DNA of 64,000 bases, taken from positions 1,674,001 through 1,738,000 of the forward strand of contig NC_007778.1 of the NCBI RefSeq assembly GCF_000013365.1, written 5' to 3'. Both the position numbers and the translations under genes were made by a program. Shown here piece by piece: positions 33,864 to 37,727 of the stretch (positions are counted from its first letter, which is position 1; each line of letters opens with the position of its first letter). Source of the stretch: Rhodopseudomonas palustris HaA2 (GTDB lineage Bacteria; Pseudomonadota; Alphaproteobacteria; Rhizobiales; Xanthobacteraceae). The notes under the pieces were generated by a model, which saw only the letters and a program-made list of their open reading frames with translations, searched no databases and was not told where the DNA came from.

Positions 33864-36800
33864 TCAGGATTCGGAAAAGTAGCTCTGCAGGGTCCGAACC
33901 TCAAGGTCTCCGCCAAGATAGGCCCGGATTCCTTTGGCGGCGGCTACGGCCCCGGAAAGAGTGGTGTAATACGGAACCTTATGCAAGAGGGCAGCGCGTC
34001 GCAACGACCGGCTGTCGGCCAGCGCCTGCGGCCCCTCGGTGGTGTTGAACACCAGTTGCACCTCGCCATTCATGATGGCGTCGACGATGTGCGGTCGGCC
34101 TTCCAGCACCTTGTTGATCTTCTCCGCCGGGATGCCGTGGTCGCTGAGATAGCGCTGGGTGCCCGAGGTGGCGATCACCTTGAAACCGACCTCGTGCAGC
34201 AGCTTCACCGCGACGGCGATCCGGGTCTTGTCGCTTTCGCGGACCGACACGAAAACCGTGCCCTTGCGCGGCACCCGCGTGCCGCCGCCGAGCTGGCTCT
34301 TGGCGAAGGCGATCTCGAACGAGCGATCGAGCCCCATAACCTCGCCGGTCGAGCGCATCTCCGGGCCGAGCACGGTGTCGACGCCGGGGAAGCGCGCGAA
34401 CGGAAATACCGACTCCTTGACGCCGACATGGTCGAGCTTGCGCTTCTTCAGACCGAGGTCGGCGATCTTCTCGCCGGCCATGATCCGGGCGGCGAGCTTG
34501 GCCACCGGCATGCCGATCACCTTGGCGACGAACGGCACCGTGCGCGAGGCGCGCGGATTGACTTCGAGCACGTAGATCTCGCCGTCCTTGATGGCGAACT
34601 GCACGTTCATCAGCCCGACCACGTCGAGCCCGAGCGCGAGCTCGCGGGTCTGTCGCTCGAGCTCGGCGATCATCGGCGCATCGAGCGAATGCGGCGGCAG
34701 CGAGCAGGCCGAGTCGCCGGAGTGGATGCCGGCTTCCTCGATGTGCTCCATGATTCCGACGATGAAAGTATCCTTGCCGTCGCACAGGCAATCGACATCG
34801 ATCTCGATGGCGTCCGACAGATAGCGGTCGAACAGCAGCGGGTTGGTACCGAGCACGGTGTTGATCTGGCCGGTCTTGTCGTTCGGATAACGCGCCTTGA
34901 CGTCGGCCGGCACCAGCTCCGGCAAGGTGCCGAGCAGATAGTCGCTGAGCTGATTGTCCTCGCGGATGATCTGCATCGCGCGGCCGCCCAGCACGTAGGA
35001 CGGGCGCACCACCAGCGGCAGGCGGAGTTCGGCGGCGACGAGGCGCGCCTGCTCGACCGAATAGGCGATGCCGTTCTTCGGCTGCTTGAGACGAAGTTTG
35101 TCGAGGATGCGCTTGAAGCGGTCGCGGTCCTCGGCGAGGTCGATCGCGTCCGGCGAGGTGCCGAGGATCGGCACGTCGGCAGCTTCCAGCGCCCGCGCCA
35201 GCTTGAGCGGGGTCTGGCCGCCGAACTGCACGATGACGCCTTTCAGCGTACCGTTGCTGCGTTCGGTGTCGATGATCTCCAGCACGTCCTCGGCAGTCAG
35301 CGGCTCGAAATACAGCCGGTCCGCGGTGTCGTAGTCGGTCGACACGGTTTCCGGGTTGCAGTTGACCATGATTGATTCATAGCCGGCGTCGTGCAGCGCG
35401 AAGCAGGCGTGACAGCAGCAATAATCGAACTCGATACCCTGGCCGATCCGGTTCGGGCCGCCGCCGAGAATGATCACCTTGTCCTTGGCCGAGGGGTGGC
35501 TTTCGTCCGACGCCGGACCGGCGAACGGCGATTCGTAGGTCGAATACATGTAGGCGGTCGGCGAGGCGAACTCCGCCGCACAGGTATCGATCCGCTTGAA
35601 CACGGGCCGCACGCCGAGCGCGCGGCGCTTGGCTTTCACCTCGGCTTCGGTAGTGCCGGCCAGCACCGACAGGCGGGCGTCGGAAAAGCCCATCGCCTTC
35701 AGTGTCCGCATCCCGAACGCGTGGTCCGGCAGGCCGCTGGCGCGGACCTTGTTCTCCATCTCGACGATGCCGCGCAATTGCGCCAGGAACCACGGATCGA
35801 TCTTGCAGGAGTTGAAGATCTCGTCGTCGGTCCAGCCGAGCCGCATCGCCTGGGCGACCTGCAGCAGCCGGCTCGGCGTCGGGGTGCCGAGGGCCGCGCG
35901 AATGGCGTTCTTGTCGTCGCCGCGGCCGAGGCCGTCGATCTCGATTTCGTCGAGTCCGGTGAGGCCGCTTTCGAGGCCGCGCAGCGCCTTCTGCAGGCTT
36001 TCCTGGAAGGTGCGGCCGATCGCCATCACCTCGCCGACCGACTTCATCGAGGTGGTCAGATTGTGCGAGGCGCCGGGGAATTTCTCGAAGGCGAAGCGCG
36101 GAATCTTGGTGACCACGTAGTCGATGGTCGGCTCGAATGCCGCCGGCGTGGCGCCGCCGGTGATGTCGTTGGCGATTTCGTCGAGCGTGTAGCCGACCGC
36201 GAGCTTGGCCGCGACCTTGGCGATCGGGAAGCCGGTCGCCTTCGAGGCCAGCGCCGAGGAGCGCGACACCCGCGGATTCATTTCGATCACGACCAGCCGG
36301 CCGTCGTCCGGATTGACCGCGAACTGCACGTTCGAGCCGCCGGTCTCGACGCCGATCTCGCGCAGCACCGCCAGCGAGGCGTCGCGCATGATCTGGTATT
36401 CCTTGTCGGTGAGCGTCAGCGCCGGCGCGACCGTGATCGAATCGCCGGTGTGCACGCCCATCGGATCGAGATTTTCGATCGAGCAGACGATGATGCAGTT
36501 GTCCTTCTTGTCGCGGACAACCTCCATCTCGTATTCTTTCCAGCCGAGGATGGATTCCTCGATCAGCACTTCGCTGGTCGGCGACGCATCGATGCCGCTC
36601 TCGACGATCTCGATGAATTCCGCCTTGGTGTAGGCGATGCCGCCGCCGGTGCCGCCCATCGTGAAGGACGGCCGGATCAGCGCCGGGAAGCCGATCTCGT
36701 CGAGCGCGCGCAGCGCGTCGGGAAGATTTTTGACCTGGCGCGAGCGCGGCGTCTCGAGGCCGATCTTGGTCATCGCCTCGCGGAAGCGCTCGCGGTCCTC

Positions 36801-37193
36801 GGCCTTGTCGATGGCGTCGGCGGTGGCGCCGATCATCTCGACGTCGAATTTCTCCAGTGTGCCGAGCTTGCGAAGCGACAGGGCGCAATTCAGCGCGGTC
36901 TGGCCGCCCATGGTCGGCAGCAACGCGAAGCCGCCGGGGATGACGTAGCGTTCCTTCTCGACGATCTTGGCGACGATCTCGGGTGTGATCGGCTCGATAT
37001 AGGTCGCGTCCGCCAGTTCCGGATCGGTCATGATCGTGGCCGGATTGGAATTGACCAGGACGACCCGGTAGCCTTCCTGCTTCAGCGCCTTGACCGCCTG
37101 GGTGCCGGAATAGTCGAATTCACAGGCTTGGCCGATCACGATGGGACCGGCGCCGATGATGAGGATGGTGGAGATGTCTGTTCGTTTGGGCAT
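33864..37193 (-). CDS. carB: Carbamoyl-phosphate synthase large subunit
   Basis: 1109 residues, full length. It makes carbamoyl phosphate for arginine and pyrimidine synthesis from bicarbonate, two ATP and ammonia delivered by CarA. Two homologous ATP-grasp halves are visible, the first beginning [20 protein letters not shown] and the second near [22 protein letters not shown] (in part); the C-terminal 140 residues are the allosteric MGS-like domain. ATG 37193 is chosen; a TTG at 37196 also opens the frame. carA is not adjacent. Confidence 0.98.
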
Positions 37194-37228
37194 CAAATCT
37201 CGCTGACGCGGGCGGGAATTTCGGGCAC

Positions 37229-37256
37229 AAAAAAAGGGCGCGCAGCCGCGCGTCCC
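37229..37256 (-). terminator. Intrinsic terminator upstream of carB, downstream of the tRNA-like gene
   Basis: On the minus strand GGGACGCGC and GCGCGCCC pair with one bulged base around a 4-base loop and are followed by seven T. It lies 36 nt before the carB start and about 110 nt after the tRNA-Cys-like gene, so it most probably ends that RNA. Confidence 0.8.
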
Positions 37257-37366
37257 TTGTTCTACAAGCGCCGGGCTTCCCAGGCGCGCGGCCGTGTCTT
37301 AGACCAGTTTCCCGGGCTGCGAAAGGGCTTAGAAGCCGCCGTCAACCGGCATTTCGGAGAGAAATC

Positions 37367-37442
37367 TGGAGGCCCAGCCTGGACTTGAACCAGGAAAAAA
37401 GAGCGTTGCACCGCCCCCGCGTTGATCTTCCGCCACCGGGCC
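37367..37442 (-). tRNA. tRNA-Cys-like gene with abnormal D and anticodon arms
   Basis: 76 nt on the minus strand including an encoded CCA. The 7-bp acceptor stem GGCCCGG/CTGGGCC (one G-U) and 5-bp T stem CCTGG/CCAGG with loop TTCAAGT are intact, and base 73 is U, as in tRNA-Cys. The central part reads U-G-C-A-A after a GGGCG stem paired with CGCTC, giving anticodon GCA (Cys) but a 6-base loop GTGCAA instead of 7. The D arm has only three pairs (GCG/CGC) and lacks G18-G19 in its loop (GAAGATCAA). The variable region is a run of U. It looks maintained rather than random: its stems and CCA are intact and a terminator follows. It may be a pseudogene or a special-purpose tRNA. Confidence 0.55.
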
Positions 37443-37727
37443 GCGTGCATTGTGGCTCGTTCGCGTGCGACATTCCAGCACGACTCAAGGTTAACCTTAC
37501 CCTTTCTGCAGGCAGCCCAAACCCCTTCTGCTGGCAGGCATCATCGGGCCTGGGCCCGTGGCCGCAAGCCCGCGCATGTCGCTGCCGCGGCTTCACGCAC
37601 TCGTGTGCGCCGGCTCGTAACATTCGGCACGGAGCTGCGTATCTTGGACAGCCGCGGGTGGAGCGGCAGGGGCCCGCCCGCCCGCTGCCTGCCCCCGCAC
37701 CGTCCGTCGAATCCGCGAGGAACCCCC

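Follow-up and report, generated by a model that had tools for sequence, protein, structure and literature searches.

A tRNA-Cys-derived, probably non-decoding RNA conserved in Rhodopseudomonas palustris and related genera

Introduction

Non-decoding tRNAs are known from few cases. Staphylococcus aureus has a set of tRNA-Gly species dedicated to cell-wall synthesis which, in the part of the source drawn on here, have lost G18G19 and carry weak EF-Tu pairs in the T stem, a G51-C63 pair being named as strong for EF-Tu (PMC4052509). The roles of pseudo-tRNAs are described as little known in the excerpted account of a Bacillus cereus example (PMC3399842). As far as the sections used here go, a further source records anticodon stems of 6 bp in tRNA-Pyl and in a mitochondrial tRNA-Ser, and the absence of G18G19 from the former (PMC7609411).

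The element described here was met in the 5.33-Mb, one-contig genome of Rhodopseudomonas palustris HaA2, within a window of 64,000 nucleotides, by which we mean the whole stretch of DNA that was analysed. It belongs to a family extending over many genera, in which the anticodon has apparently been dismantled in evolution and the acceptor half retained. Judged from its anatomy and evolution, the element may well be a non-decoding paralogue of tRNA-Cys with a non-ribosomal use, a reading that we put forward tentatively; if it were charged, rhizobia and related bacteria would possess a consumer of aminoacyl-tRNA that has yet to be described. In the literature outside most subscription journals, no title or opening of an abstract was found that describes this family.

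Results and discussion

The element and its fold

ARAGORN, run over the whole 64-kb window, reported a single tRNA-like gene, at 37442..37367 on the minus strand, and named it tRNA-???. From this call, its fold and its conservation, the gene is taken to specify a tRNA-Cys-derived, probably non-decoding RNA of 76 nt including an encoded CCA (37367..37442, minus strand, as are all features of the window given below). Read 5' to 3', the 5' strand of the acceptor stem, GGCCCGG (37436..37442), is followed by TG and by the D arm (37419..37433), whose stem GCG/CGC encloses the loop GAAGATCAA, without G18G19. The anticodon arm (37399..37418), assigned from fold and covariation, has a 7-bp stem, GGGGGCG with CGCTCTT, closed by the 6-nt loop GTGCAA with its UGCA core. 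There follow TTTT, the T arm CCTGG TTCAAGT CCAGG (37378..37394), the 3' acceptor strand CTGGGCC (37371..37377), and the discriminator U73 with the encoded CCA (37367..37370). Fold and alignments together define the T arm, and fold with the paired cells of the alignments defines both acceptor strands; the D arm is assigned from the fold, and the TCCA end from its presence in 117 of 118 distinct copies.

The 7-bp acceptor stem (one of its pairs is G-U), the 5-bp T stem, the 7-nt TTC loop and the CCA end are canonical for a tRNA, and both CysRS determinants, U73 and GCA, are present; the canonical 5-bp anticodon stem with a 7-nt loop, and G18G19 in the D loop, are absent. The minimum-energy fold of the RNA is a cloverleaf with the same 7-bp anticodon stem and 6-nt loop. 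ARAGORN and the fold thus bear out the preliminary description of this DNA in respect of a 76-nt minus-strand element with a 7-bp acceptor stem, U73, CCA and T arm, a D loop without GG and an anticodon loop of six bases; its further statement that the variable region is all U holds in most of the genus and fails in relatives. The folding energy is ordinary (z -1.33; 24 of 200 shuffled sequences were equally stable), and the case therefore rests on conservation.

Searches for ordinary tRNAs do not recover the element. Rfam at its gathering score gave no match anywhere in the window, a local search with the Rfam tRNA family at E up to 10 did not match the element, and none of the 51 matches to RF00005 listed for this genome lies at it. 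Missed by the Rfam tRNA model and left unnamed by ARAGORN, the element is likely to be absent from annotation or entered as an undetermined tRNA. Elsewhere in the genome, two weak RF00005 matches drew no ARAGORN call: L073 (G000:C1:351134-351207, 30.4 bits), which may be part of a tmRNA, and L074 (G000:C1:3780645-3780716, 25.3 bits), which looks like a tRNA fragment.

Flanking signals and the carB neighbour

Conserved upstream patches delimit a promoter-like pair, CTGGAA and CACAAT separated by 18 nt, placed 6 nt before G1 (37449..37478). TGGA of this block is invariant in 16 genomes of the genus, the rest of the upstream region being variable; a scan for the sigma-70 consensus over 37180..37600 gave no matches, so that the pair is not a consensus match. 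Downstream lies carB (33864..37196), encoding the large subunit of carbamoyl-phosphate synthase, an open reading frame matched by NCBIfam NF003671 at 1707.7 bits. The element stands on the strand of carB and upstream of it in 62 of 80 named loci among the matches listed, and likewise in 45 of 67 rows of a further set, in which the flanks were often only 1.5 kb; element and carB stand between about 160 and 2000 nt apart.

A terminator scan confirmed the intrinsic terminator GGGACGCGCGGCTGCGCGCCC-T7 at 37229..37256, a hairpin of the form GGGACGCGC-loop-GCGCGCCC-T7, which had been credited to the element as its own terminator some 110 nt downstream. It is real, and it belongs to carB: in 101 of 108 carB-linked rows (some genomes counted twice, and one row being a decayed second copy in L016) the terminator pattern precedes carB by a median of 28 nt (range 14-170), whereas its distance from the element runs from 122 to 2000 nt in the same rows. 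Since its place is fixed relative to carB and not to the element, the terminator is assigned to the carB leader, where it may be an attenuator. The conserved leader (37197..37343) contains a block GGAAACTGGTCTAAGACACG followed by CCGCGCG, and this last sequence could pair with CGCGCGG of the terminator, in what looks like a carB attenuator. No terminator other than that of carB was seen near the element in the window.

Distribution and conservation

A DNA similarity search found the element in 25 of 61 genomes: all 16 of the genus (that of HaA2 included), eight of 21 other members of the family and one of 24 other members of the order. Over the 16 genus genomes, 79% of the columns of the element are invariant, against 4% in a 160-nt alignment upstream and 29% downstream, the downstream stretch containing the carB leader. 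A covariance model searched over 198 genomes of the family gave matches in 181, ordinary tRNA-Cys included. As the latter scores up to about 70 bits, a cut of 70.9 bits was applied; the element reaches it in at least 89 of the 198 genomes by a hand count of the listed matches, and over half of the sample is without a match above it. A pattern scan in which the acceptor and T arms were fixed and the anticodon arm left free returned at least 80 named loci, and carriers among the matches listed include Bradyrhizobium, Rhodopseudomonas, Nitrobacter, Afipia, Tardiphaga, Pseudolabrys and Pseudorhodoplanes. Further families of the order also contain the element. The exact pattern, which would miss more divergent forms, matched two of 385 genomes in a sample of the class, both of the same family as HaA2, and none of the 380 outside the order.

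The element is a separate gene, a paralogue of tRNA-Cys that coexists with the ordinary one, which in HaA2 lies elsewhere in the genome and which similarity detects in 57 of 61 genomes. Partial copies of ordinary tRNA-Cys, comprising 5' or 3' halves, were seen at G014:C1:1307025-1307068, G009:C56:43791-43827, G044:C218:1446-1488 and G053:C4:202295-202335, and resemble remnants of elements that integrate into that gene.

Some genomes hold two or three copies of the element (G158, G226, G218, G103, G120, G169, G147 and G131; loci L117-L135). Several of these extra copies have the loop CCGCAAA or CAGCAAA, in which U33 is lost, and downstream of two of them is an open reading frame that is presumably dnaB. 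The neighbours of 15 loci without carB nearby, considered as open reading frames only, differ from copy to copy and offer no functional lead. A degraded second copy in L016 (2014-2083), lying some 440 bp downstream from the intact element, is a natural example of decay. At many Bradyrhizobium loci, L146, L149 and L150 among them, imperfect palindromes (gccttcgc...gcgaaggc or cgcttcgcc...gcgaagcg) begin at the first base after CCA; they are possibly palindromic repeats that target the 3' end of the element.

Covariation and anatomy across copies

Alignment A2, whose 15 sequences (14 distinct) were not chosen for their loop, has standard pairs in 99.7% of its pair cells and in all of its acceptor cells. 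Its covariation score was reached by none of 500 shuffles, and four pairs show changes on both sides. The pair closing the loop is formed in 13 of the 14 distinct sequences (GC 9, CG 2, UA 1, UG 1, unpaired 1). The same pair was followed on a carB tree through 98 carB-linked loci with loops of any size, of which the 90 with a TGCA core were analysed. Of these 90, 78 (87%) form the pair that closes the 6-nt loop; 2000 shuffles gave 39% on average and 56% at most. Along the tree the pair switches state 33 times or more, and the stems are not decaying across relatives. A stricter test confined to independent pairs on the tree had only five usable, all in the expected direction (p 0.06). In alignment A4, made up of 55 distinct sequences chosen for the 6-nt loop, with four of the 59 omitted for shifted T arms, the closing pair is GC in 21, CG in 12, UA in 10, AU in 7 and UG in 5; these sequences were preselected for that pair, and only the variety of pair types counts. 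Acceptor cells of A4 are 99.2% paired, and its measure of further pair types was reached by 32 of 500 shuffles.

The anatomy was surveyed in 118 distinct copies (170 rows with duplicates), of which five anticodon arms could not be parsed; a few T arms are off by one base in the parse. The acceptor stem, U73-CCA and the T arm are nearly invariant across copies, a constancy that was partly selected by the model and pattern searches, so that identity figures overstate it; there are exceptions, among them L135, whose acceptor stem has compensated changes. The TCCA end is found in 117 of the 118, an end that the searches likewise favour. The D loop lacks GG in 92 of 118. U8:A14 is kept in 116, and the 15:48 pair is A:U in 91, G:G in 12, G:C in 6 and other in 9 (G15:G48 is a determinant of E. 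coli tRNA-Cys according to the portion of PMC9976931 used here); the retained U8:A14 and the covarying 15:48 pair are, at the level of the alignment, signs that the L-shaped fold is preserved. Loop lengths in the 113 parsed copies are 6 nt (63), 4 (26), 7 (12), 8 (8) and 5 (4). GCA stands within the loop in 110 of these 113, and three copies of this main set are without it. Immediately 5' of GCA stands U in 93 copies, C in 11, and A or G in 3 each. A base other than U there, as in 17 of 110, is what would be expected if GCA were retained for the sake of CysRS rather than decoding.

Loss of the anticodon in one genus

Among 297 genomes of the order, the model search gave strong matches in seven genomes of a genus (g81) of another family (f35), and a pattern search of a 397-genome sample found the element in all 13 genomes of this genus. 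In all 13 copies the anticodon loop is replaced by a GGAA tetraloop. This sits on a stem of 7-8 bp which covaries by most measures in alignment A5, the measure of pairs changed on both sides being reached by 52 of 500 shuffles. The D loop keeps GG in these copies, and the D stem is of the GGG/CCC type as against GCG/CGC, changed on both sides. Over the acceptor and T half, the g81 copies are identical to the window element at 34-37 of 37 positions, to typical ordinary tRNA-Cys of the order at 26-30 of 37 (12 of the 13 copies compared), and to a divergent ordinary tRNA-Cys copy, L325, at 22-24 of 37. The ordinary tRNA-Cys of HaA2 and that of g81, again with 12 of 13 g81 copies in the comparison, agree in this half at 33 of 37. 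All 13 genomes have an ordinary tRNA-Cys.

In the nine g81 copies displayed of the 13, hairpins of -22 to -35 kcal/mol start a few bases after CCA, and these predicted structures suggest a short, tRNA-sized transcript in the displayed copies. At seven g81 loci the neighbours are gyrA upstream (6/7) and coaD downstream (3/7), the names coming from NCBIfam for L272 and L276. In families f6, f23 and f41 a second copy, its loop of 6 nt (L275) or of the usual 7 nt, stands beside ordinary tRNA-Cys. In g134, g107 and L025 the second copy has the usual 7-nt loop, and ARAGORN reports it as tRNA-Cys; an ordinary tRNA-Cys is present in 12 of 12 g107 genomes. Judged by their sequences, the forms seem to grade from a tRNA fit for decoding into an RNA without anticodon, no direction of events being implied.

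Candidate charging enzyme and consumers

A single full-strength CysRS match was found per genome in all of 24 genomes, so that any charging would fall to the housekeeping enzyme. A second CysRS was considered and rejected: the remaining hits to PF01406 are partial, do not exceed 43 bits and are presumably other class I synthetases. As candidate consumers, LPG_synthase_C (PF09924) was found in none of 24 genomes and FemAB (PF02388) in one of 30, with no match in the HaA2 genome.

Interpretation

The element is, on the evidence of the alignments, genuine and not a decaying pseudogene. Its being a pseudogene of a tRNA, or a piece of tRNA that integrating elements left behind, would fit its non-acceptance as a normal tRNA by Rfam and ARAGORN and the decay that duplicates do undergo, as in the second copy of L016, which has lost acceptor pairing and CCA and scores 30.7 bits. 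Set against the 79% of invariant columns (4% upstream), the 99.7% of pair cells formed in A2 with a score reached by 0/500 shuffles, and synteny across many genera, this is scarcely credible, and as the main explanation it is refuted by the covariation. A cis-regulatory segment of the carB leader, acting on carB, would sit where the element often does, on the same strand and upstream of carB (62/80 loci among the matches listed, 45/67 further rows); but the gap to carB varies from about 160 to 2000 nt while the terminator tracks carB only, several genomes have extra copies elsewhere, and the g81 neighbours are gyrA and coaD, which together make such a role very improbable. A functional minor decoding tRNA-Cys whose odd anticodon arm is tolerated has more to recommend it: most copies keep GCA and U73, in g134, g107 and L025 a second copy shows a 7-nt loop and gets an ARAGORN call of tRNA-Cys, and, in the excerpt of PMC7609411, tRNA-Pyl works in translation with a 6-bp anticodon stem and without G18G19, so that such stems, in tRNA-Pyl and in the mitochondrial tRNA-Ser, count against a non-decoding reading. 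An ordinary tRNA-Cys is nevertheless also present (57/61 genomes; 13/13 in g81; 12/12 in g107), the loop has 6 nt, or 4 should the palindromic forms be fully paired, some lineages have lost U33, and GCA is missing from three of 113 copies of the main set and the whole anticodon from 13/13 of g81. Decoding as the job of the element seems unlikely, because the loop is remodelled, G18G19 are mostly missing and in g81 the anticodon is replaced by GGAA; we consider a minor decoder improbable.

The main rival is an uncharged regulatory or decoy RNA, in which the tRNA fold would serve as a protein-binding platform or as part of an sRNA and not as an amino acid donor; CysRS, EF-Tu, RNases and the CCA enzyme are candidates for binding. 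This is a possibility of some substance, if a minority one, for g81, in losing the anticodon, has given up a feature that ranks with U73 among the main CysRS determinants, and the tRNAOther of B. cereus, a known pseudo-tRNA, is in the partial account to hand poorly aminoacylated in vitro, not on polysomes, and perhaps inside a larger regulatory RNA (PMC3399842). A platform would, on the other hand, not need the GCA kept in 110/113 parsed loops or the TCCA kept in 117/118 copies, and the hairpins right after CCA in the displayed g81 copies suggest, for that genus, a tRNA-sized transcript and argue there against a larger RNA.

A tRNA-like molecule with a role outside normal decoding had been raised in the preliminary description. 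Its premise has stood, since the stems in orthologous loci are not decaying; the role itself we infer from anatomy and evolution. The element keeps the acceptor-end features that tRNA maturation and synthetases would read and, except in g81, mostly the GCA recognised by CysRS, and breaks with what the ribosome would need in loop size, in U33 in some lineages and in the G18G19 contact at the elbow. As a non-decoding tRNA-Cys paralogue, its RNA would be transcribed on its own and trimmed as a tRNA is, and its acceptor end would be used by an enzyme. The single CysRS may charge most copies with cysteine through U73 and UGCA, while the distorted anticodon loop and the missing G18G19 would keep the product off the ribosome; the Cys-tRNA, or an uncharged mimic, might then be reserved for a non-ribosomal reaction or for sensing the supply of cysteine. 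In g81, where recognition would fall to the acceptor half alone, cysteine is least certain because the GCA read by CysRS is gone. It is tempting, though distinctly speculative, to see in the element, conserved as it is in an order, a dedicated aminoacyl carrier tRNA which has shed its decoding half and serves an undescribed tRNA-dependent pathway of cysteine. Such a carrier could, with the same reserve, be represented by three forms: a near-normal tRNA-Cys, one with a 6-nt UGCA loop on a lengthened stem, and one with a GNRA-type (GGAA) tetraloop.

Comparison with known systems

The ordinary tRNA-Cys is homologous to the element, having GTGGCGGA at the D arm, U73-CCA and the pairs G1-C72, G2-C71 and C3-G70; in HaA2 the two are identical at 27 of 37 positions of the acceptor and T half. 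Unlike the element, the ordinary tRNA has a 7-nt loop with U33 and possesses G18G19. The pair concerned in EF-Tu binding is G51-C63 in the ordinary tRNA-Cys of HaA2 as against U51-A63 in the element, an argument that is not general because the ordinary tRNA-Cys of g81 has C51-G63.

The selC* tRNA-Cys of anaerobic bacteria, as the cited extracts present it, resembles the element in being a second tRNA-Cys with U73 and an unusual structure, and its architecture is 8/4, its variable arm is longer, and in some cases a CysRS* of its own goes with it (PMC7609411); the element by contrast has a 7/5 architecture and a short variable region, in genomes with one full-strength CysRS match each. The tRNAOther of B. 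cereus also stands beside normal tRNAs and is thought, in the portion of the report used here, to act outside translation, and differs in having a Trp anticodon, in its position at a genomic island and in perhaps belonging to larger RNAs (PMC3399842); the element is akin to tRNA-Cys and has been conserved across many genera within an order. A further likeness is to the non-proteinogenic tRNA-Gly species of S. aureus, substrates of FemXAB, which the passages of PMC4052509 consulted describe as extra genes with G18G19 replaced. The element differs from these in being of the Cys type (U73, GCA), in its remodelled anticodon arm, in the absence of the anticodon from one genus and in there being no FemAB match in its own genome; it has in common with non-proteinogenic tRNAs an extra gene, the replacement of G18G19 and an acceptor end that is kept.
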